A stretch of 64,000 bases of DNA from assembly GCF_001889405.1 (NCBI RefSeq), contig NZ_CP017921.1:1688057-1752056 (forward strand). The letters run 5' to 3'. Below are positions 9,758 through 20,804 of the stretch, one piece after another. Under the pieces are notes generated by a model. The model worked only from the letters and a program-made list of their open reading frames with translations. It did not search any database and was not told where the DNA came from. The stretch is from Methanohalophilus halophilus (GTDB lineage Archaea > Halobacteriota > Methanosarcinia > Methanosarcinales > Methanosarcinaceae). Position numbers and translations under genes: made by a program. Within the stretch, counting starts at the first letter, position 1. Every line of letters starts with the position of its first letter.

Positions 9758-11149
9758 TCAGAGACCGTAGTTCTCCGGCCTGAATACCTTGACTTCCTTT
9801 TTGTATTGTTCAAGGGAGTCACTGAGGAACTTGTCTGAATCATCAGTAAGTCCAGCCAGAGCTTCACTTGCATCAGCAAGTGCATTCTTTTCGAATCTGG
9901 TCATCTGTAGTTTGGGATCTGCGTTTTCAAGCAGGTTCACACACTCTACAGCAGCGTTCTTTGCACGGAGATAGATGTCATCTGAATCCTTGACAATTGC
10001 TTCACCGACCTTGTAGGCATTGTCATAGGCCAGGATGTATCCCTGTGGGTCCCTGTACTTGTCGGAGAGAACCATCATGTCCCTGAGGTTCTTGGATTGA
10101 CCTGTCTGGAGGGAGACATTCATCAGTGCGCAGTCATATGCAAGGGATTCACCCCAGCACTGTACAGTTGTACCACCGAATTCACCGTGATATTCTACGG
10201 ATTCATTGGACCATAGGTCACAGCACTGCATTACAAGGTTACCCATTACATCGGAGTGGGCGCATGTGGAAGACTTACCTTCCTGGGCAATTGGGACACC
10301 AGCAATGGATTTTACAATGGTGTTCTCGTAACCACAGTCCTTGCCCGGACCAACTGCACCTGCTTCATAGGCGGCAAGGGTACGTGGTGCGGATATAGCC
10401 CTGGCAATTATTGCAAGGGTGTGGGCAAGGTTTTTGTCAAGGAGTCCACCTGCAATGAACATTGCAGTGTTTGCCTGTGCACAGTCAGTATCACCAGCTG
10501 CGACGACATTGTTCTTCTTGGCAACTTTGGCAATGTCCTGCCAGATGTATTCCATATCCATGGTACCTAGGCAACCAATTGCAAAAAGCATACCTGGCAC
10601 ATCATTTCTCAGAATTGCACGGTCAAAGACTTCTTTACCACCCATAGTTTCGATGGATAAGAGATCTGCACCGTTTGATGCAACTTCTTCGAAAGATTCC
10701 ATAAGGGTGTTGTATTTCTCTCCCCTCAACTGCAGGTAGTCACGGTCTTCACGGATGTCACCAGGAGTGTGTCTCAGAGCGCATTTGATGCCGTATTCAT
10801 CATGGTAATCTTCCATAATGGCTTTCTGTGCATTTGCGACTTCTCCACCCCAGGTTGGGTTATTGGTCATCTGCTGAACGTGCTCGGTTTCCAGTACGAC
10901 TGATGGGAAACCAACCTGGACCATCCTTTCCATTATGTCGCGGGTAATACGCTCATATTCCTTTACAAGTTTCTCTTTGGTCTCACCGGCTTCTGGCCTT
11001 GGTGCATAGTTTACTTCAGGTGTGGTGTAACCGGCACCAATCTCTAAGTCCAGACCTGCTTTTACAGGATTGGGGGAGTTTCCAAAAATCATATCGTCTG
11101 CGCTAGCATATGCCATCTTGGTGTATCTGTTTACTGTCATTTTGCTCAC
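9758..11149 (-). CDS. mtaB: Methanol:corrinoid methyltransferase MtaB, copy 1
   Basis: The 463-residue protein is full length for MtaB, the zinc TIM-barrel subunit that activates methanol and methylates the MtaC corrinoid. The three zinc ligands known for the M. barkeri enzyme are present: Glu167 (SIETMGGKEV), Cys223 (GDTDCAQAN) and Cys272 (GPGKDCGYEN), each offset by three from the M. barkeri numbering. The gene starts 3 bases after the mtaC1 stop with a GAGGTGAG site, so C and B are translated together. The pair shares a nearly identical DNA tract with mtaB2 at 10839-10933. In Methanosarcina such pairs are strongly regulated by methanol. Confidence 0.97.
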   Translation of the reverse strand: MSKMTVNRYTKMAYASADDMIFGNSPNPVKAGLDLEIGAGYTTPEVNYAPRPEAGETKEKLVKEYERITRDIMERMVQVGFPSVVLETEHVQQMTNNPTWGGEVANAQKAIMEDYHDEYGIKCALRHTPGDIREDRDYLQLRGEKYNTLMESFEEVASNGADLLSIETMGGKEVFDRAILRNDVPGMLFAIGCLGTMDMEYIWQDIAKVAKKNNVVAAGDTDCAQANTAMFIAGGLLDKNLAHTLAIIARAISAPRTLAAYEAGAVGPGKDCGYENTIVKSIAGVPIAQEGKSSTCAHSDVMGNLVMQCCDLWSNESVEYHGEFGGTTVQCWGESLAYDCALMNVSLQTGQSKNLRDMMVLSDKYRDPQGYILAYDNAYKVGEAIVKDSDDIYLRAKNAAVECVNLLENADPKLQMTRFEKNALADASEALAGLTDDSDKFLSDSLEQYKKEVKVFRPENYGL

Positions 11150-11152
11150 CTC

Positions 11153-11923
11153 TCAGTGTTGATGGAATTGTTCCTTGAGTTTGCCAAGATCTGCGCCTGC
11201 AAGAATTGCCTCTGCCATCTTTGGTGCGTCGGCAGCCTCTTCTCCATATACTCCTAGCTCATAGGTTGATACGAAGTCCTGGTTTACAGCACCGCCACCA
11301 CACTGGAATGGAACTTTTATACCTGCTTCAAGAAGCCTGTCATTGACAGCCTTGAATGCATACATTGTGGTAGTCATCAAAGCGGTTCCTGTCACCATCA
11401 TTGGTTTTTCTTTCTTCACAGCTTCAATTACTTCGTCTACCGGCACATCACGTCCAAGATCCACTACATCGAAACCATTTGCTCTCAGGAGGGCTGAGAC
11501 AATGGACTTACCGATGTCATGCACGTCACCTTCTGCAACGTGGCATACGATCTTACCTTTGGATACAGGTGGTTCCTTGGCCTGGGATTTACAGAAATCA
11601 ATACCATCAAGCATTGCATCTGCAGACATCATTACATTTGGCAGGAAAATTATTCCTTCATCATAGAGTTTTGTTACTACTCCCATTCCTACCATCAGGG
11701 CATCATCAATTAAGGCAATTGGATCTTTACCGGCTTCAATTGCTTTCTTGAGGCCCTCTACTGTGTCATCTTCTTCGCCTTCATAGATAGATTCTGCAAT
11801 AGGGCGAATCAGCTCGTCTTTTGGATAAAGTTCTGCTGCCGCGTCATCCGGCGTCATTGCTTTTTCCATTTTGACGTTATACCTTTCCAGAATTTCACTG
11901 GGGTCTAAGTCCAAACTGGTCAT
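11153..11923 (-). CDS. mtaC: Methanol corrinoid protein MtaC, copy 1
   Basis: The 256-residue protein is the corrinoid carrier of the methanol methyltransferase. It has an N-terminal helical cap (residues 1-105) and a Rossmann-like B12-binding domain with GDVHDIGKSIV, whose His is the lower cobalt ligand, followed by VVDLGRDVPVDEV and GTALMTTTM. The C-terminal region GGGAVNQDFV matches the corrinoid tail pocket. It is the first gene of the mtaC1B1 pair, with a long AT-rich leader that carries a hairpin. Confidence 0.97.
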   Translation of the reverse strand: MTSLDLDPSEILERYNVKMEKAMTPDDAAAELYPKDELIRPIAESIYEGEEDDTVEGLKKAIEAGKDPIALIDDALMVGMGVVTKLYDEGIIFLPNVMMSADAMLDGIDFCKSQAKEPPVSKGKIVCHVAEGDVHDIGKSIVSALLRANGFDVVDLGRDVPVDEVIEAVKKEKPMMVTGTALMTTTMYAFKAVNDRLLEAGIKVPFQCGGGAVNQDFVSTYELGVYGEEAADAPKMAEAILAGADLGKLKEQFHQH

Positions 11924-12002
11924 TCTACACTTCCTTCCATATTTGTTTTAAATATATCCAGGGTCAATGCCTGATGGCGATTGGCCCAACTCCAATCTAT
12001 TG

Positions 12003-12022
12003 TGAGGTTTAATCAAACCTCA
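12003..12022 (-). repeat. Hairpin in the mtaC1 leader
   Basis: A perfect 8-base inverted repeat TGAGGTTT-AATC-AAACCTCA with a 4-base loop lies about 80 bases upstream of the mtaC1 start, downstream of the likely promoter. It would be transcribed as a stable stem-loop in the 5' leader. Confidence 0.5.
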
Positions 12023-12071
12023 TATTCAAGTGTGATATAATCTTATATAAACATTTCTACTGTTTGGTGGT

Positions 12072-12081
12072 TATATATAAA
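12072..12081 (-). promoter_or_regulatory. Probable mtaC1 promoter and AT-rich leader (11924-12419)
   Basis: The 496 bases between mtaB2 and mtaC1 hold no gene. On the minus strand TTTATATATA at 12072-12081 is the best TATA box, giving a leader of about 125 bases that includes the 12003-12022 hairpin. A second TATA-like TTTATATAAG lies at 12043-12052. The part from 12085 to 12419 is very AT-rich and probably holds the end of the mtaC2B2 transcript and upstream regulatory DNA. Confidence 0.45.
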
Positions 12082-12419
12082 TGTTGTCTATTATTTTAAA
12101 TTCAAATCAATTAGTTTTTATAGTAAGAAATACGTTGATTGATTGCTTTTTTTTGATTATATTTGTATGAATTCAAAAAATAGAGATTATTAGTTATAAT
12201 AATACTTATATAGCATAATGAAAAGAACTGGTTGGATGAATCATATAAATAGATACTTACAATAAAATGAACATAAAAAATAATTGAAAATATACATAAT
12301 TTGCAGCATAGCGTTTTCAAAAATACATTCTAAACAATTAAATTATGATAGAATAGATAGAAATAACTATATATAGGAGAACTCTAAAAAAGCAATATTA
12401 GTAGTTAAAATTAGAAAAA

Positions 12420-13805
12420 TTAAAGGCCATAATTTGATGGGTTAAAAGTATCCACTTCAGATGAATAAATATCCAGGCAATTACAAATAAAAGATTCCAT
12501 ATTTTCGTCTAATGATTTCAGGTCATTCCAGGTTTTCTTTATTGTAGCTTTTTCAAACTTGGATAACTCCAGGAATCCTTCGGAACCACTTTCGATTAAT
12601 TCACAAGCTTTCATACCTGCCTCTTTTGCCCTCAGGTACAAATCATCCGGATGGGCAGTTATTACTTCACCGATACGATAAGCATTATCATACGATAGTA
12701 TGAATGCCTGTGGATCCCTGTATCTGTCTGAAACCATTAACACATCACGCAGGGTTTTACCAACTCCGGCTTCCAATGCCGTATTCATCATGCTGCAATC
12801 GTAAGAAAGGGTTTCACCCCAACATTGTACAGTGGTTCCTCCAAAATCTCCCCGGTATTCCACAGATTCATTGGACCAGAGATCGCAACATTGCATGGCC
12901 ATGTTGCCCATCAGATCTGAGTGGGCACATGTAGAACCTTTGCCTTCCTGAGAAATAGGGTAACCGGTAATTGCCTTAATAATAATGTTCTCATAACCAC
13001 AGTCCTTGCCCGGACCAATTGCACCTGCTTCATATGCAGCAAGAGACCTTGATGCAGAAACTGACCTTACAACAGATGCCACACTATGGGATAATTTGAA
13101 GTCAAGCAGCCCTCCTGCAACAAACATTGCAGTGTTTGCCTGTGCACAGGCCGTATCGCCTGCAGGTACTACTTTATTTTTCTTTGCAATATTGCAGATA
13201 TCTTTCCATATATATTCAACATCTAAAGCACCAAGTATACCAACTGAAAAGATAACTCCCCGCATGTCATTCCTCAGGATAGAATGATCAAATACTTCTT
13301 TACCTCCAAGGGATTCAATCGACAACATATCCGCTCCTGAAGAAGCGACTTGTTCAAATGACTCAAGAATTCGGGAATAAGCATCTCCTCGCAGGTCAAT
13401 GCTTTCCCTATCTCCCCGGACATCACCAACTGTATGCCTGAGGGCACATTTGATGCCATATTCATCATGGTACTCTTCCATGATTGCTTTTTGAGCATTT
13501 GCAACTTCTCCACCCCAGGTTGGGTTATTGGTCATCTGCTGAACGTGCTCGGTTTCAAGTACGACTGATGGGAAACCAACCTGGACCATCCTTTCCATAA
13601 TGTCACGGGTAATACGCTCGTATTCATTTACAAGCGTTGCCTTATTTTCAGCCGCATCCGGCCGGGGAGCATAATTGATTTCAGCAGTAGTATATCCAGC
13701 ACCAATTTCCAGATCAAGACCGGTTTTCACAGGATATTTTGAGTGGCCAAAAAGAAGGTCTTCAAAATTGTCATATTCCATGGAAGAATAACGTTTAACA
13801 GACAT
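12420..13805 (-). CDS. mtaB: Methanol:corrinoid methyltransferase MtaB, copy 2
   Basis: A 461-residue second MtaB with intact zinc ligands Glu164, Cys220 and Cys269 (LSIESLGGKEV, GDTACAQAN, GPGKDCGYEN), at the same numbers as the M. barkeri protein. It differs from copy 1 mainly in residues 1-25, 130-260 and the C-terminus, while residues 60-110 are nearly identical. It follows mtaC2 by 13 bases. Codon use is more AT-rich than copy 1, which suggests weaker expression. The cell probably uses the copies under different methanol supply or growth phase, as Methanosarcina does. Confidence 0.96.
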   Translation of the reverse strand: MSVKRYSSMEYDNFEDLLFGHSKYPVKTGLDLEIGAGYTTAEINYAPRPDAAENKATLVNEYERITRDIMERMVQVGFPSVVLETEHVQQMTNNPTWGGEVANAQKAIMEEYHDEYGIKCALRHTVGDVRGDRESIDLRGDAYSRILESFEQVASSGADMLSIESLGGKEVFDHSILRNDMRGVIFSVGILGALDVEYIWKDICNIAKKNKVVPAGDTACAQANTAMFVAGGLLDFKLSHSVASVVRSVSASRSLAAYEAGAIGPGKDCGYENIIIKAITGYPISQEGKGSTCAHSDLMGNMAMQCCDLWSNESVEYRGDFGGTTVQCWGETLSYDCSMMNTALEAGVGKTLRDVLMVSDRYRDPQAFILSYDNAYRIGEVITAHPDDLYLRAKEAGMKACELIESGSEGFLELSKFEKATIKKTWNDLKSLDENMESFICNCLDIYSSEVDTFNPSNYGL

Positions 13806-13818
13806 AATATAGGTCTCC

Positions 13819-14583
13819 TTAGTGTTTATGGAAAGTATCCCTTAATTTCCTTATATCCAATCCATGCAGGATGGAATCTGCAATTTTTGGTACGTCTGCA
13901 GCTTCCTCGCAATATACTCCTAGATCATAATCAGAAACAAAGTCCTGGGTTACAGCCCCACCACCACAGACTACAGGTACATTTATATCACTTGCCAGCA
14001 GTCGCGAATTCACGTCTTTGAAAGCATGCATTGTAGTGGTCATCAAGGCGGTTCCAGAAAGCATGATGGGTTTCTCTCTTTTGGCTGCGGCCACAACTTC
14101 TTCAACAGGCACATCTTTTCCAAGGTCAATAACTTCATAACCATTGGCACGTAAAAGAACAGTTACAATCTTTTTCCCAATGTCGTGAATATCACCTTCT
14201 ACAACATAAGAAATAATCTTGCCCTTTGATTCATGAGTCTGTTTGGATTGTTCCTTGCAATATTCTATACCTTCAATCATTGCCTGGGCAGAGATAATAA
14301 CATCCGGCAGGTACAGCAACCCGTAATCATAAAGTGTGGATACCACTTCCATTCCTGCCATTAGAGCATCGTTTATAAGTGTAAGAGGGGGTACTCCAGA
14401 ATCAATTGTATTTTGCAAAGCAGCGACAACTTCATCTTCATCGCCTTCAAAAACAGCTTTGACGACCTGACGAATATGGGGGTCTGTGGGGTACAGCTGT
14501 TCTGCCACCTCTTCAGGAGTCATATCACTTTCAACCAATATGTTGTAGCGTATCAAAGTATTTTTAGGATTGATATCTATCAT
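13819..14583 (-). CDS. mtaC: Methanol corrinoid protein MtaC, copy 2
   Basis: About 254 residues with the corrinoid motif GDIHDIGKKIV (His lower ligand), VIDLGKDVPVEEV and GTALMTTTM, as in copy 1. The ATG at 14583 (MIDINPKN) is chosen because it aligns with the start of copy 1. The frame is open for 16 more codons upstream (to 14631), so an extended N-terminus remains possible. The gene begins 69 bases after the PAS/GAF gene on the same strand, and no strong TATA box is visible in that gap, so transcription may come from the sensor gene promoter. Confidence 0.95.
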   Translation of the reverse strand: MIDINPKNTLIRYNILVESDMTPEEVAEQLYPTDPHIRQVVKAVFEGDEDEVVAALQNTIDSGVPPLTLINDALMAGMEVVSTLYDYGLLYLPDVIISAQAMIEGIEYCKEQSKQTHESKGKIISYVVEGDIHDIGKKIVTVLLRANGYEVIDLGKDVPVEEVVAAAKREKPIMLSGTALMTTTMHAFKDVNSRLLASDINVPVVCGGGAVTQDFVSDYDLGVYCEEAADVPKIADSILHGLDIRKLRDTFHKH

Positions 14584-14652: not shown

Positions 14653-17600
14653 TCATTCAACAATTCGATTGACAACTATGACTACATCATTCCCGTTCCA
14701 TTCCCCCCTTTGCAATGTAGTATCGACATTTATTAGATTATTATTTTTGTCCATCAAAGTGAACAAATGTTTCTGTTTGTTACCATTGAGTGCTTCGTTA
14801 AAGGCTTTTGCAGCATCAAGTACCTGAGTATGGGAATGAATTTTTATAAAATTCATACCTGTTATTTCCTGTTTGGAATATTTCAGGGTTTTTGTAACAT
14901 TAAGATTGGAATAAAGAATGCAGCCTTCTGGATCTACCACAAAAATCAGCTCAGATATTGTGTCAAAGAGTACCTGTAAATCATATTGGCTTTTCTGAAT
15001 ACCTGCCTCTTTTTCAATCCTGTCAAGCACAGAACCTATCTGGTTTGCCACAGTTTCAAGCGAGTTACGTATGGAATATGGAATCTCATAATTTTTATGG
15101 GATGCCAAAAACAATACTGCAGATAAATTATCATTGGTTATTACAGGTATAATGGCTGTTGCCAGAAGGTTATCCTTGCCTTTTTTGGATTTAGAGAAGG
15201 GATAGATTTCAGAATAAAGTTTATACACGGGATACTGTACTGACAGGAATTTTCCCCTAAGTGAATCCTTTTCAATTGTAGAATGTTTTTCAACAAAACC
15301 ATCGGAAATATTACGATGAGCTACAATATTAAGGTCTTTACTGGATTTGTCAACAATATAAAGAACACCTGCATCCACACCTTCAATATGAAGAGCCAGC
15401 TCTAGTAGCTGATCAAACATTTCTTGCATATCACCGGTGGGTGTCAGGAAATTCCCAATATCAGTATCAATATCTAAAAAACGATTTACTCTTTTTCTTT
15501 CAGTAATATCAAGGATTATACCTTGATAGTGGCTTATTTCGCTCTTTTCATATTGGATGGAACCTCGTTCTTCAACCCAGCGCACATCTCCCTTTTTTGT
15601 GATTATACGGTATTCAATATTGTAATCTGACAATCCTTCATCTGAATATTTTGCAAGCTTCTGATGGACATACTCGAGATCAGAGGGATGTATAATGTCC
15701 CCATATTGTAATTTTCCGGAAGTAAATTCCTCGGCCCTGTAACCAAAATTTTCAATGTTTTCAGATACAAACTCCACCGGCCAATCTTCCTCCGGGGCCC
15801 AAAAGAAAACTATTGCAGGACTGGTACGAATTACAGATTGAAGCACTTTAAGGACTTTAAACGTTTCAAGAAGTTTATTCTCTTTTTCTTTTTGTTGTGT
15901 AATGTCACTTATAAATGCCATTACTGCAGGTTTGCCTTCATGGTCGATTACAGATGTGCTTACTATTACAGGTATTTTCTTGCCGTTCTTTGTAACCAGT
16001 TCAATTTCATCTCTGGAATGAGACATCTCCTTTTGCTGTATATACTGCTGGTTTTTTTTAGTCACCATACGGTGATATTCTTCAGCAACGTAATTCCTAA
16101 AATCTGTATTAAGTATTGAATCACAATCGTTGTCCACGAATTCACAAAACATCGAATTTGCAAATTTAAGTTTACCATCCTGAATTACAACTATTGCGTC
16201 ATTGCCGTTTTCCACAAGGGAAGAATATTTGATTTCAGAATCACGTAATGATTTCTCGGCCATTTTATGTTTAATTGTAGTCCATATATCCTGTATAAAA
16301 AGTTCTAATTGATTTATTTCCATTTCTTTGAAGGCTATATTCCTTCTAAAACCTGCAACAATTACAAGCTGCTTATTTTCAAAAAGAGGTATTTCAACGG
16401 TTTTTCCCCCATCCATAACATTGGATTTTCGATCTTTGAAATCAAGATTTTCAATTCTTCCAGATACAAATGATTCCAGATATTCTGTATCAGGAGTATA
16501 CAGTATTTTTTCAGGGTTGCTATCCTTTCCCATCTTGCAAAGATAGCCACAATCACTGTCTGTAAATTCAACTGTAAGTTCAAGAGCGAAACGAGCTATT
16601 TCATCGAAAGAAAAAACTTCCAACCGATTTAATTTTAAAAGGGCTTCAAGTCGGGATTTGTTCATTTGAAGAGTGGCTTCAGCACCTTTTTGCAGGGAAA
16701 TATCTTCAAAGATACCTATCCCACCCTGTAAAATCCCATCCAGAAGCAAGGAGTTACATGTAAGTTTTATAGATTTGGATGAATATTGAGTGTTAATATC
16801 GTATTCTCCCCTGTAAGAAAGAGCGTTTCCGGAAAGCACCTTTTTTATCTGGTCAGACGCTTCTTTATCAGGAATATAATCAAAAATTTCAGGTTCTTCC
16901 TTTTCAGCAATAAAAGTTTTAAATATATAATTGAAGGCTTCATTAGAGTTACTTATCCTGCCTTTCCTGTCAAAATAAACAATTCCAATAGGTGTTTTTT
17001 CAAAGATTGATCTGTATTTCTTTTCAGCCTCTTTGAGATGCTCTTCTGCTTGCCTTTTAGCTGATATATCCCGAAATATGACCATCACTGCAGGTCGATT
17101 GCCATACTCAACAAGTGATGATGAAAGTTCGAAAGGAGTGACTTTACCTGATGTTGACAGTAATTCGACCTCATATGTCATTTCCCCGTATATTTTTTTT
17201 TCAATACGTTTGGTATATTTTTTGTACAACATCCTCCGATATTGTATAGGAAAATAATTCAGGAAATTTGTACCTTTTATTTCATCCCACTTTTTACCAA
17301 CAATTTTTCCGAATTTGCGGTTTGCAAACTGGATTTGCTCATCTTGAATTATGATTATTCCTTCAGAAATGCCCGATGTGAAAATGGAGAGCAGATCTTC
17401 AAATTTTTCAGATTCGTTTTCAGAAAAAGGATGTTTTTCAAGTGTAAGTATAAATGCAGGTGAATCAGGCAAAGCAGGGTTCAAGTAATGAGCTGTAAAA
17501 TTGTAGACTTCACCTTCACTATCTTCAATGGAATGAATAGTTGATTCTGTTTGTGAAGGGATATTGTTGAGGGACTGAACAATTTCTTTTTTGGTAAAGG

Positions 17601-17784
17601 GCCATATTTCAATATCAAAAACTGATTTTCCATAAAGGTTTTCTGTAATTCCTAAAAAACTGCTAATTTTGGAATTTAAATATATTATGTTATATTTACT
17701 ATCAAGTAAAAGAATACCGATGTCCAGAAAGTCTAATGCGGGCTCAAGATTAATTTGCCCTTCTTTAAAAGTAGGTTTTTCCAT
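14653..17784 (-). CDS. Large PAS/GAF sensor protein without output domain
   Basis: About 1,044 residues made of sensory modules only. In order they are PAS (10-100), PAS (125-245), PAS (255-370), GAF (385-500), PAS (515-640), PAS with a PAC-like tail (655-770; KKGDVRWVEERGSI), GAF (780-915) and PAS (930-1040). Typical PAS segments are DGKLKFANSMF and PEGCILYSNLN. No HisKA, HATPase, HTH or other output domain is present and there is no transmembrane segment, so it is cytoplasmic. Start ATG at 17784 has AGGAAC upstream. It lies directly upstream of mtaC2B2 and downstream of mtaA-ramA, so a link to methanol sensing is inferred. Confidence 0.85.
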   Translation of the reverse strand: MEKPTFKEGQINLEPALDFLDIGILLLDSKYNIIYLNSKISSFLGITENLYGKSVFDIEIWPFTKKEIVQSLNNIPSQTESTIHSIEDSEGEVYNFTAHYLNPALPDSPAFILTLEKHPFSENESEKFEDLLSIFTSGISEGIIIIQDEQIQFANRKFGKIVGKKWDEIKGTNFLNYFPIQYRRMLYKKYTKRIEKKIYGEMTYEVELLSTSGKVTPFELSSSLVEYGNRPAVMVIFRDISAKRQAEEHLKEAEKKYRSIFEKTPIGIVYFDRKGRISNSNEAFNYIFKTFIAEKEEPEIFDYIPDKEASDQIKKVLSGNALSYRGEYDINTQYSSKSIKLTCNSLLLDGILQGGIGIFEDISLQKGAEATLQMNKSRLEALLKLNRLEVFSFDEIARFALELTVEFTDSDCGYLCKMGKDSNPEKILYTPDTEYLESFVSGRIENLDFKDRKSNVMDGGKTVEIPLFENKQLVIVAGFRRNIAFKEMEINQLELFIQDIWTTIKHKMAEKSLRDSEIKYSSLVENGNDAIVVIQDGKLKFANSMFCEFVDNDCDSILNTDFRNYVAEEYHRMVTKKNQQYIQQKEMSHSRDEIELVTKNGKKIPVIVSTSVIDHEGKPAVMAFISDITQQKEKENKLLETFKVLKVLQSVIRTSPAIVFFWAPEEDWPVEFVSENIENFGYRAEEFTSGKLQYGDIIHPSDLEYVHQKLAKYSDEGLSDYNIEYRIITKKGDVRWVEERGSIQYEKSEISHYQGIILDITERKRVNRFLDIDTDIGNFLTPTGDMQEMFDQLLELALHIEGVDAGVLYIVDKSSKDLNIVAHRNISDGFVEKHSTIEKDSLRGKFLSVQYPVYKLYSEIYPFSKSKKGKDNLLATAIIPVITNDNLSAVLFLASHKNYEIPYSIRNSLETVANQIGSVLDRIEKEAGIQKSQYDLQVLFDTISELIFVVDPEGCILYSNLNVTKTLKYSKQEITGMNFIKIHSHTQVLDAAKAFNEALNGNKQKHLFTLMDKNNNLINVDTTLQRGEWNGNDVVIVVNRIVE

Positions 17785-17840
17785 AATGTTCCTGCCAATA
17801 CATCGACAATTAATATAATACAATGCAAATCAATCTCATG

Positions 17841-17977: not shown

Positions 17978-19099
17978 TTACACATCTTCTGGGTGATTGT
18001 GATTTTCGTGGTTGTGACTGTCATGGTTGTGCTTATGGACAGCAGTTTTCACTATTTTAATACCATGATTTGTGAAAATTTCCTTGACAAAGAAATCCAC
18101 AAGTTCCATTAATTCCGAACGGGAAACATTTGAAATTGCAGATAGAATCTTGACAGAAGGCTTAGAAGAATATGATTCTATTGTTTCAATTTGAGGTTTT
18201 TCTTCGGCTCCTGTGACACTGGAACGTACATTTACGGTACCGGCTTGCAAAATCACTTTCATGTGACCGACAAAATCCGGATTCATCACGATTATCTCTT
18301 TTTTTAGACCTTCCATCAGGTTTGAGACTATTGATTGGGCTTTTTCAGACTCAAGATAATCATGATTTAGACTGTATTCAGATGCATAAGTGGCCATTTT
18401 TGAATACTCTATCGAATTTTCTCCACTATCTGCAATAATTTCTTCTGCATCGGGGCTTTTATCAATACTTCCTTTCCTTCTATCGACTTCAAGGGATGTT
18501 TCATCACTTAATAGTCCACTAATGAATTCTGCAAACTCTTCATCCTTGCTTTTCGCGGAAAAACGAACCGTATGTGCCTGCGGATTCATCTGCTGAACTG
18601 AAGATTCAACTATCGGTATATACAAGTCTTCTATTAAATCCACTTTGTTGATGGCCAGGATTTCAGCATCAATGATCTGTCTTTTGGAAAACTGTTTCGT
18701 TTCTTTCATTATTTGCTTGAAACGGCTGCCATCAATTACTGTAACCAGAGGTGCAAACTCAACATCTTTCAAATTCATCAGCATGATATCTTCTTTTATT
18801 ACAGCAGGAAATGCAATACCTGTAGGTTCAACAAGTAGAATATCCGGCTTCATTTTCCTATAAATTTCATCTACGGTATACCTCATATCTCTTTTGAGAG
18901 TACAACATACACAACCGTTTGTGAGCTCTATGGAATCAAAACCATAACTGGAGATGATATCAGCATCAACTCCAATTTCGCCTATTTCATTTACTATTAT
19001 AGCAGCTTTCTGACCCTTTTCCCCGAGATATTTACCAATGCGGAGGATTGTAGTGGTTTTTCCACTTCCTAGAAATCCTCCCACAACGAGTACTTTCAT
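17978..19099 (-). CDS. COG0523 (CobW/HypB-type) GTPase with His-rich tail
   Basis: About 373 residues. The N-terminus has Walker A GGFLGSGKTTT, followed by NEIGEIGVDADI, the metal-binding GCVCCTL motif (CxCC) and guanine-specificity NKVD. The C-terminus ends in a His-rich tail (HKHNHDSHNHENHNH) that should bind Zn, Ni or Co. COG0523 GTPases are metallochaperones. ATG at 19099 follows GGAAGGT. It is the third gene after mtaA and ramA with a 20-base gap. MtaA and MtaB are zinc enzymes and MtaC carries cobalt, so delivery of one of these metals is a reasonable inference, with zinc the more likely. Confidence 0.9.
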   Translation of the reverse strand: MKVLVVGGFLGSGKTTTILRIGKYLGEKGQKAAIIVNEIGEIGVDADIISSYGFDSIELTNGCVCCTLKRDMRYTVDEIYRKMKPDILLVEPTGIAFPAVIKEDIMLMNLKDVEFAPLVTVIDGSRFKQIMKETKQFSKRQIIDAEILAINKVDLIEDLYIPIVESSVQQMNPQAHTVRFSAKSKDEEFAEFISGLLSDETSLEVDRRKGSIDKSPDAEEIIADSGENSIEYSKMATYASEYSLNHDYLESEKAQSIVSNLMEGLKKEIIVMNPDFVGHMKVILQAGTVNVRSSVTGAEEKPQIETIESYSSKPSVKILSAISNVSRSELMELVDFFVKEIFTNHGIKIVKTAVHKHNHDSHNHENHNHPEDV

Positions 19100-19119
19100 T
19101 CGCTCAAACCTTCCATAGA

Positions 19120-20751
19120 TTATTGTTCCGTTGATGGTTCCTGCATCATAACATCCAGATTTTCCCATTTAAACAGGTCATGGGGACAGGCATGTATGCA
19201 TTTCTGACAATGAGCGCCATCACATAGATCAGTACGTATCATTACTCTGTTATCTTCCATAGAAAGGGCATCATTAGGACAGACCTGGACGCACTTATGA
19301 CAGGTTTCACAGCCTTCAATGACCATTGTAAGATACGTTCCAACCTTATCAAGAACGTGAAGGCCTTCTTCTCCCAGTACAGGAATATCTTTCACTACAC
19401 GTTTTTCAACAGCAGGAACCGATTTTACGACATCGATTGTAGGTAGTTTCTTTTTCTTCAGGTATTTTTTAAGGACTTTGAAAGGCATGCCTTCTCCCCA
19501 ATAAGAAAGTTCGAGAATGTAGGCCTCCTTAAATGCATCATCCATAGCAAACATGACATGTGTTCCAACGATTTCCTCTGCAATTTCCTGCAATTCCCAT
19601 AACCTGTCCTCAGAGAGCAAAATTTCTTTGGCAACTATCAGGGAGGTGTTCCCAATTTGGCTAATTTGACCTACATCATAAGGGATCATGCCAATATTGT
19701 GCGCCTTAATAGCATCCATATAGGTTCCTGCAGCACCTGACATATATGCAGTTTGTATATCCTCCATTCCTATTCCGGCAGCATTACAAAGAGTTATGTG
19801 ACCTGCCCTTATAGCCCCAATCGCCCTGCCAGCTTCTACAAGATCATGTTCGTTAAACTTTATTCCATCCTGTAATTGGATGACACTGTTCTTCAGGTTG
19901 ATCTTTGGGAGTACTACAAGACCATTTTTAATAGCTTCATCAATTAAAGAAATTACACCTGTTCCTGTAATACCATGTGCTTCTATGTCTCCCTTATCTA
20001 TTACCGTGCCATCGTCTGGTTTTACGAGGTCACCCTGTACAGTATCCATTTCATCATTAAGGACATAGTTACGTAGTGCTTTATCTTCAAAGGTCACATC
20101 AGATATCGCATGAGGCCTAGCAATCGTACCATCTGTGATTTCCTGTCCTTCCAGGGCCGGTCCAGCTGCAGCTGAGCCTGTATATATTACATCTCCTACT
20201 TTCAAAGCCATCTCGGCATTTGTTCCGTAATCCGTTGCAATTGAAATATCTGCATTGTCCAGCATACCGGATTTGACAATAAGTGCAAGAGCATCAGCTC
20301 CCACTTCATGTTTGATTGCAGGAGGAATAACAACACTGCAATTATCAAGATCTTCAAGACCCGGAATAAAGATACTTTTTACAACAGATGCTTTGCGTTC
20401 CTGTTCTTTTATGTTATATTTTGCTTTTTTTCTCTGTCCCGCATATGCAAGATCATCAATTGGTATTCCCTGAAACAGGGATAACTGGATAGGATTTCCG
20501 CAAATCGCGATTTTATCAGGAGATGAATGAATCCCAAGTTCCTCAAGAATGTTCCGGAAAGCACCTATTACTAGTTCGTGGGCAAGATCCTGTCCATAAT
20601 TCATGGCAAAATCCAAATGATCCATGACATTGGCTCCCGGAAGAGGGTTATTCATGGTAATCACGGTTTTATGGATCTCACCACTTTCAATATCTATTTT
20701 CTGAGCCCTGAAACCACTGGTTCCAAGATCAATAGCAACTCCCACTTTCAT
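19120..20751 (-). CDS. ramA: Corrinoid protein reductive activase, RamA type
   Basis: About 543 residues with an ASKHA ATPase core (VAIDLGTSGFRAQ at the start, ATDYGTNAEMAL near residue 205, YMSGAAGTYMDA near 360) and a C-terminal two-cluster ferredoxin domain: CETCHKCVQVCP (CX2CX2CX3C) and CDGAHCQKCIHACP (CX4CX2CX3C). This is the RamA layout, which reduces inactive Co(II) corrinoid to Co(I) using ATP and reductant so the methyl transfer cycle can resume. ATG at 20751 has GAGGTGGT ahead. It sits between mtaA and the COG0523 gene, so it most likely serves MtaC, although RamA was first characterised with methylamine proteins. Confidence 0.93.
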   Translation of the reverse strand: MKVGVAIDLGTSGFRAQKIDIESGEIHKTVITMNNPLPGANVMDHLDFAMNYGQDLAHELVIGAFRNILEELGIHSSPDKIAICGNPIQLSLFQGIPIDDLAYAGQRKKAKYNIKEQERKASVVKSIFIPGLEDLDNCSVVIPPAIKHEVGADALALIVKSGMLDNADISIATDYGTNAEMALKVGDVIYTGSAAAGPALEGQEITDGTIARPHAISDVTFEDKALRNYVLNDEMDTVQGDLVKPDDGTVIDKGDIEAHGITGTGVISLIDEAIKNGLVVLPKINLKNSVIQLQDGIKFNEHDLVEAGRAIGAIRAGHITLCNAAGIGMEDIQTAYMSGAAGTYMDAIKAHNIGMIPYDVGQISQIGNTSLIVAKEILLSEDRLWELQEIAEEIVGTHVMFAMDDAFKEAYILELSYWGEGMPFKVLKKYLKKKKLPTIDVVKSVPAVEKRVVKDIPVLGEEGLHVLDKVGTYLTMVIEGCETCHKCVQVCPNDALSMEDNRVMIRTDLCDGAHCQKCIHACPHDLFKWENLDVMMQEPSTEQ

Positions 20752-20804
20752 ATAACCACCTCTTTTAATTAAAAGAGGGATGCTATCAGGCACCCCTTAT
20801 ACAA

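Follow-up and report, generated by a model that had tools for sequence, protein, structure and literature searches.

In the Methanosarcinales, concerted evolution of mtmB/mtmC and mtbB/mtbC by gene conversion has been reported (PMC6053082), and gene conversion of mtrA has been described in the Methanococcales and Methanomicrobiales (PMC4632066). Neither paper mentions mtaB in its main text. Here we analyse the two mtaB genes of Methanohalophilus halophilus, mtaB1 and mtaB2, which lie in a stretch of 64,000 nucleotides (nt) of contig NZ_CP017921.1, hereafter the window, to which all coordinates refer. Methanogenesis from methanol begins with the enzyme MtaB. The two genes share a short, nearly identical tract that we ascribe, with a probability of roughly 0.93, to ectopic gene conversion by homologous recombination between mtaB1 and mtaB2, judging from sequence comparison. 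The case would resemble that of mtmB/mtmC and mtbB/mtbC in that conversion acts between paralogues of corrinoid-dependent methyltransferases in the same order of methanogens.

Synonymous identity between two diverged mtaB genes

Bases 10839-10933 of mtaB1 and 13504-13598 of mtaB2 differ at one position in 95 (10892/13557), and outside this tract the genes are about 64.5% identical. An exact block of 41 nt and another of 53 nt border the mismatch; no other exact match between the two genes in M. halophilus exceeds 27 nt. Synonymous sites take part in this identity. Over codons 69-99 the synonymous difference is 1.0 in 19.5 sites (proportion of synonymous differences, pS, 0.05), compared with a pS of 0.78 in the remainder of the pair, 0.74 in codons 100-129 on the right and 0.96 in codons 30-59 on the left. 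The first-pass annotation of this DNA had described the single mismatch and the diverged synonymous sites of the adjoining codons, and had proposed comparing synonymous divergence between windows and running GENECONV. Both descriptions were borne out, the tract falling far below its neighbours.

The codon is identical at only half of the aligned positions where MtaB1 and MtaB2 carry the same amino acid (151 of 300), so it is the clustering of identical codons that is unusual. We shuffled degenerate codons for the same amino acid 20,000 times and applied a GENECONV-like test to 14 orthologous sequences (mtaB1 and mtaB2 from seven genomes). None of the 20,000 codon shuffles matched the best segment, codons 70-99, the longest identical run had a P value of 0.001 in the same procedure, and the GENECONV-like test returned P = 0.00005, the floor value for this number of shuffles. 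The pair thus displays a local excess of identity, synonymous sites included, with sharp edges, as ectopic gene conversion leaves.

The orthologues were drawn from a search of eight Methanohalophilus genomes, seven of which hold both mtaB genes: M. halophilus, M. profundi, M. euhalobius, strain RSK, the metagenome-assembled genome DJK, which is an outlying species, and two genomes labelled mah and por, which we take to be M. mahii and M. portucalensis. The eighth (2.1 Mb, 98% complete) gave no MtaB match and may be without a methanol methyltransferase. Over the rest of the gene, the two copies are 64-65% identical in all seven genomes. At the tract, identity is 98.9% in M. halophilus, 92.6% in M. 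profundi, 75.8% in M. euhalobius, M. portucalensis and DJK, 74.7% in RSK and 72.6% in M. mahii, and in the last five 54-95% of the synonymous sites differ between the copies. Unconverted orthologous pairs are therefore diverged at the very same place (72.6-75.8%), indicating that synonymous sites there are free to change. Among the six close species (all but DJK), mtaB1 orthologues are 89.5-98.9% identical in the tract and 93.8-96.7% over the rest; the tract is no better conserved among them than the remainder, so nothing constrains the DNA there.

A wider survey covered 79 loci out of 293 relatives, ranked by closeness to mtaB1, in which second copies may be missed. It yielded 95 mtaB genes from 51 assemblies and 55 within-genome pairs from 34 assemblies. 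Five of the 55 pairs reach at least 92% identity at codons 69-99, namely those of M. halophilus and M. profundi and three whose remaining sequence is 97-100% identical as well; apart from the M. halophilus and M. profundi pairs, none of the 55 combines such identity with a diverged remainder. The identity at this place is thus not general among MtaB paralogues, a comparison that the first-pass annotation had also put forward. Seven pairs, M. halophilus included, hold a segment at P < 0.01, at varied positions in the gene, and 17 do so at P < 0.05. The survey also includes, and we kept in, two pairs located on two contigs (L009 and L010) of one Methanococcoides seepicolus assembly that match each other at 100%; they reflect either recent duplication or assembly redundancy.

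For the phylogenetic tests, alignment nt j corresponds to window position 11140-j in mtaB1 and 13805-j in mtaB2. The rest-of-gene topology was rejected for nt 207-302 (log-likelihood difference 72.9; approximately unbiased test, p-AU, 1e-43) and for nt 249-302 and nt 207-248 taken separately (log-likelihood differences 49.1 and 24.5; p-AU < 1e-39 each). The phylogeny of the tract is thus in conflict with that of the rest of the gene.

Two abutting patches of opposite direction

The nt 207-226 part of the left 41-nt block is near-identical in other close species too, and the tract specific to M. halophilus is therefore nt 227-301. We scored the 319 diagnostic positions that are fixed and different between mtaB1 and mtaB2 in four unconverted species (M. 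mahii, M. euhalobius, M. portucalensis and RSK). In nt 249-302, 14 of the 16 such sites in M. halophilus mtaB2 are in the mtaB1 state, compared with 3 of 303 elsewhere; the corresponding counts for M. profundi are 15 of 16 and 6 of 303. Across nt 257-300, mtaB2 of both species shows states that otherwise belong to mtaB1, and the nearest relative of the M. halophilus mtaB2 tract (codons 69-99) among the other 94 mtaB genes is its own mtaB1 (98.9%). This right patch amounts to 44-53 bases of mtaB2 overwritten by mtaB1, the direction being read against the orthologues. It brings five residues of MtaB2 to the MtaB1 type (H93N, E96T, A99G, D100E and I101V, MtaB1 numbering): the unconverted mtaB2 products of four species read NPEWGADI, the converted ones NPTWGGEV. 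Because the right patch altered residues, part of the protein identity between MtaB1 and MtaB2 would itself be a product of conversion.

On the left, it is mtaB1 of M. halophilus and M. profundi that has mtaB2 states, at nt 227, 236, 237 and 242. Leave-one-out P values for this run of four are 0.0010 and 0.0030, respectively. The left patch gives A80S in MtaB1, alanine being kept in the four unconverted species and in DJK, whose mtaB1 has the mtaB1 base at three of the four sites and neither base at nt 236. Its extent is at least 16 bases; the block on its left gives no information. Between the patches, at nt 248, each gene retains its own base, which is the single mismatch. By the table of diagnostic sites each patch is one-way, that is, non-reciprocal. 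The tract that the first-pass annotation had treated as a single unit thus remains a product of local conversion in our reading, refined to two abutting patches of opposite direction with the mismatch as their junction.

We propose that, in the M. halophilus lineage, 44-53 bp of mtaB2 were replaced by mtaB1 sequence and at least 16 bp of mtaB1, just left of the right-patch position, took on mtaB2 sequence, the patches abutting where each gene kept its own base. Strand invasion may have begun in the already near-identical block 10914-10954, and the opposite directions could stem from the repair of mismatches in heteroduplex carried by both partners, which is what a double-Holliday-junction intermediate would give. 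The opposite directions flanking the junction fit one event as well as two.

The right patch in M. halophilus looks recent, since its 53 nt are free of mismatches and include a base at 10841 (nt 299) by which M. halophilus mtaB1 stands apart from the other close species: A in this gene and in the right patch of mtaB2, G in mtaB1 of the other five close species. M. profundi mtaB2 has G, like its own mtaB1. Since both DJK genes have A here, other readings retain some plausibility. The right ends differ as well, M. halophilus mtaB2 having the mtaB2 base at nt 302 and M. profundi mtaB2 the mtaB1 base. The M. profundi copy looks older; there the two genes differ at 7 of the 95 tract sites, compared with one in M. 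halophilus. The two species may thus record either two events or one shared event followed by a repeat in M. halophilus.

Several points weigh against conversion as we read it. The shuffle tests carry no model of regional constraint, which is covered by the orthologue comparison. The left patch is based on four sites; fixation across the four unconverted species holds for just two of these. Taken by itself, the M. profundi pair gives no significant tract as long as mismatches are barred (P 0.09-0.19), and reaches significance only once they are allowed. M. halophilus is represented by one strain only. Finally, a null constrained solely to the split between mtaB1 and mtaB2 genes was not rejected either for the full 95 bp (p-AU 0.46) or for nt 180-248 (p-AU 0.24), and was rejected only on the right (nt 249-302, p-AU 0.019). 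We judged this constraint too weak, because converted mtaB2 genes may sit at the base of the mtaB2 group, and replaced it by the rest-of-gene topology.

Competing explanations and neighbouring zones

The alternative that survives best, unlikely as we hold it to be, is a single conversion in one lineage, after which the converted alleles spread between species by homologous recombination. It would explain why M. halophilus and M. profundi both carry both patches though they are not sisters: in the rpoB and mcrA regions, M. profundi pairs with M. portucalensis (support 98) and M. halophilus falls outside that group. Affinities between species also vary along the 20-kb mta neighbourhood. However, outside the tract M. 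halophilus and M. profundi are not unusually alike in either gene, and the own-genome match of each mtaB2 at nt 299, together with the different right ends at nt 302, fits separate or repeated events. Spread of alleles concerns dissemination, so that gene conversion would still be required as the origin. As for the neighbourhood itself, M. euhalobius and RSK fall to 78-86% identity with M. halophilus near 15.2-17.2 kb of locus L124, and the shifting affinities suggest recombination between species.

The first-pass annotation had left the cause between local conversion and selection on the DNA or RNA itself. Under the latter, a regulatory or structural element in the coding sequence would keep the copies identical. 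The region is indeed strongly conserved at the protein level, and at nt 303-345 the paralogues are 79-88% identical in six of the seven species and 100% in RSK. This explanation nevertheless runs against the synonymous differences at the tract in five of the seven species and against the mtaB1 orthologues, which are not more alike there than elsewhere. We consider it very improbable, and for nt 227-302 it is ruled out by the diverged orthologous pairs, in which synonymous sites are not conserved. Of the two causes, conversion is thus the one upheld, by orthologues and topology.

Chance combined with codon bias and protein conservation draws on the fact that the codons lie within a protein-conserved stretch, with more than 50 consecutive residues identical between MtaB1 and MtaB2, but it is contradicted by both shuffle tests and by the residues changed in the right patch, which make protein identity part of the event, and the orthologue comparison rules it out; the chances of it being correct are minimal. 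The earlier statement that protein conservation alone is insufficient holds in view of the synonymous clustering, with the refinement that some of that protein identity would itself come from conversion. An assembly or sequencing artefact, that is, a chimeric collapse of two similar genes, found no supporting point and is just as implausible, being ruled out by the same patches in the separately sequenced M. profundi genome, with private differences and a different right end, and countered by the gene-specific bases kept at the junction.

Conversion between the two genes may also have reached neighbouring zones. Paralogue identity at nt 186-226 is 88-100% in the six close species, 68% in DJK and 73-76% in four Methanococcoides pairs, and for nt 180-226 the rest-of-gene topology was rejected (p-AU 3e-4). 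This block probably dates from an earlier conversion that took place in the common ancestor of these six. In RSK, nt 303-346 form an exact 44-nt block between the copies with a run of six switched diagnostic sites, a probable further tract with weaker statistics (p-AU 0.03; Kishino-Hasegawa test, 0.06); DJK mtaB2 has five of these six states, and retention of an old state is possible. M. profundi mtaB2 has eight consecutive diagnostic sites in the mtaB1 state at nt 620-641 (13164-13185 in the window), absent in M. halophilus, probably a further conversion patch. From the old block, the two-way exchange in two species with different right ends and the RSK tract, we tentatively suggest that codons 62-115 may be a recurrent zone of exchange between mtaB1 and mtaB2 across Methanohalophilus, the two-way patches perhaps being what a single repair of a double-strand break, with heteroduplex formed on both partners, left behind in an archaeon.

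Setting of the mta loci and comparison with known systems

The M. halophilus genome is a single contig of 2,022,959 bases with two mtaB genes (Table 1). They are direct repeats 2.66 kb apart, each paired with its own mtaC on the minus strand (mtaC1-mtaB1, 11923-9758; mtaC2-mtaB2, 14583-12420). Two mtaB genes about 2.7 kb apart are also present in the six relatives having both, the count being unchanged. MtaB1 and MtaB2 are 65% identical, and the Pfam MtaB match spans nearly the full length of both. We place the start of mtaB1 at the ATG at 11140; the mechanical open reading frame begins at GTG 11149. No conversion tract was found between mtaC1 and mtaC2 (longest identical-codon run 5, P = 0.73), and a search of the 64-kb window for direct or inverted repeats (seed 20, length at least 60) returned none besides the two mtaB segments. 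Adjoining mtaC2, 14653-17823 encodes a 1056-residue protein with PAS and GAF domains and no kinase domain match in Pfam, a possible sensor for the methanol genes. Further upstream, and likewise on the minus strand, 17978-20793 encodes a GTPase of the CobW type together with a corrinoid activation protein of the RACo type that has a ferredoxin-like C terminus.

Table 1. Features of the two mta loci and of the proposed conversion patches (window coordinates).
Feature	Position	Strand	Evidence
mtaB1, methanol:corrinoid methyltransferase	9758..11140	-	Pfam MtaB PF12176, E 8.7e-242; PDB 2i2x_A, E 3e-245
mtaC1, corrinoid protein gene upstream of mtaB1	11153..11923	-	B12-binding domains
mtaB2, second methanol:corrinoid methyltransferase gene	12420..13805	-	Pfam MtaB PF12176, E 3.1e-226
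mtaC2, corrinoid protein gene upstream of mtaB2	13819..14583	-	Pfam domain search
Right patch in mtaB2, putative recipient of mtaB1 sequence	13504..13556	-	exact match to mtaB1 over 53 nt; diagnostic sites switched at 13548-13505
Putative donor segment in mtaB1 for right patch	10839..10891	-	nearest relative of mtaB2 tract
Left patch in mtaB1, mtaB2 states	10898..10913	-	4/4 diagnostic sites (10913, 10904, 10903, 10898)
Putative donor segment in mtaB2 for left patch	13563..13578	-	site table, run test
Junction site	10892 (nt 248; partner 13557)	-	mtaB1 CTG, mtaB2 CTT, as in the other five close species
Block probably homogenised earlier	10914..10954 (nt 186-226; partner 13579-13619)	-	paralogue identity, topology test

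As a molecular marker, mtaB has served in work on methanogens (PMC4493836). Trees or primers based on this segment of mtaB can confuse the two copies. The picture of MtaB function is unchanged by our findings. Among the papers listed by literature searches on mtaB, Methanohalophilus, gene conversion and concerted evolution, none reports the mtaB1/mtaB2 case by title or beginning of abstract, which does not establish its absence from print.

Gene conversion as such is well known, and on our reading mtaB would join the set of methyltransferase genes in which sequence exchange is known. What the present case would contribute is a very clear example of short-patch conversion resolved to the base, between methanogen paralogues that have diverged at one base in three and with opposite directions at one junction. 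The mtmB/mtmC and mtbB/mtbC genes are reported to be homogenised over nearly the full gene and over long times (PMC6053082), whereas mtaB shows short patches in paralogues that are about 65% identical. Over the rest of the gene, mtaB orthologues from the six close species are 91.8-96.7% identical, compared with 64-65% for the paralogues, a relation that does not fit long-lasting concerted evolution. Since only patches are identical in the mtaB pair, we do not group it with the genes under such evolution. The mtrA case is alike in involving duplicated methanogenesis genes and unlike in concerning another gene and other orders (PMC4632066). Class-I release factor genes likewise undergo conversion between anciently diverged paralogues, but in bacteria (PMC4530459). 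In the polyploid archaeon Haloferax volcanii, intermolecular gene conversion proceeds without selection; there it equalises chromosome copies and sites 600 bp apart nearly always co-convert (PMC8223754), whereas in mtaB it would have involved tens of bases between diverged paralogues.

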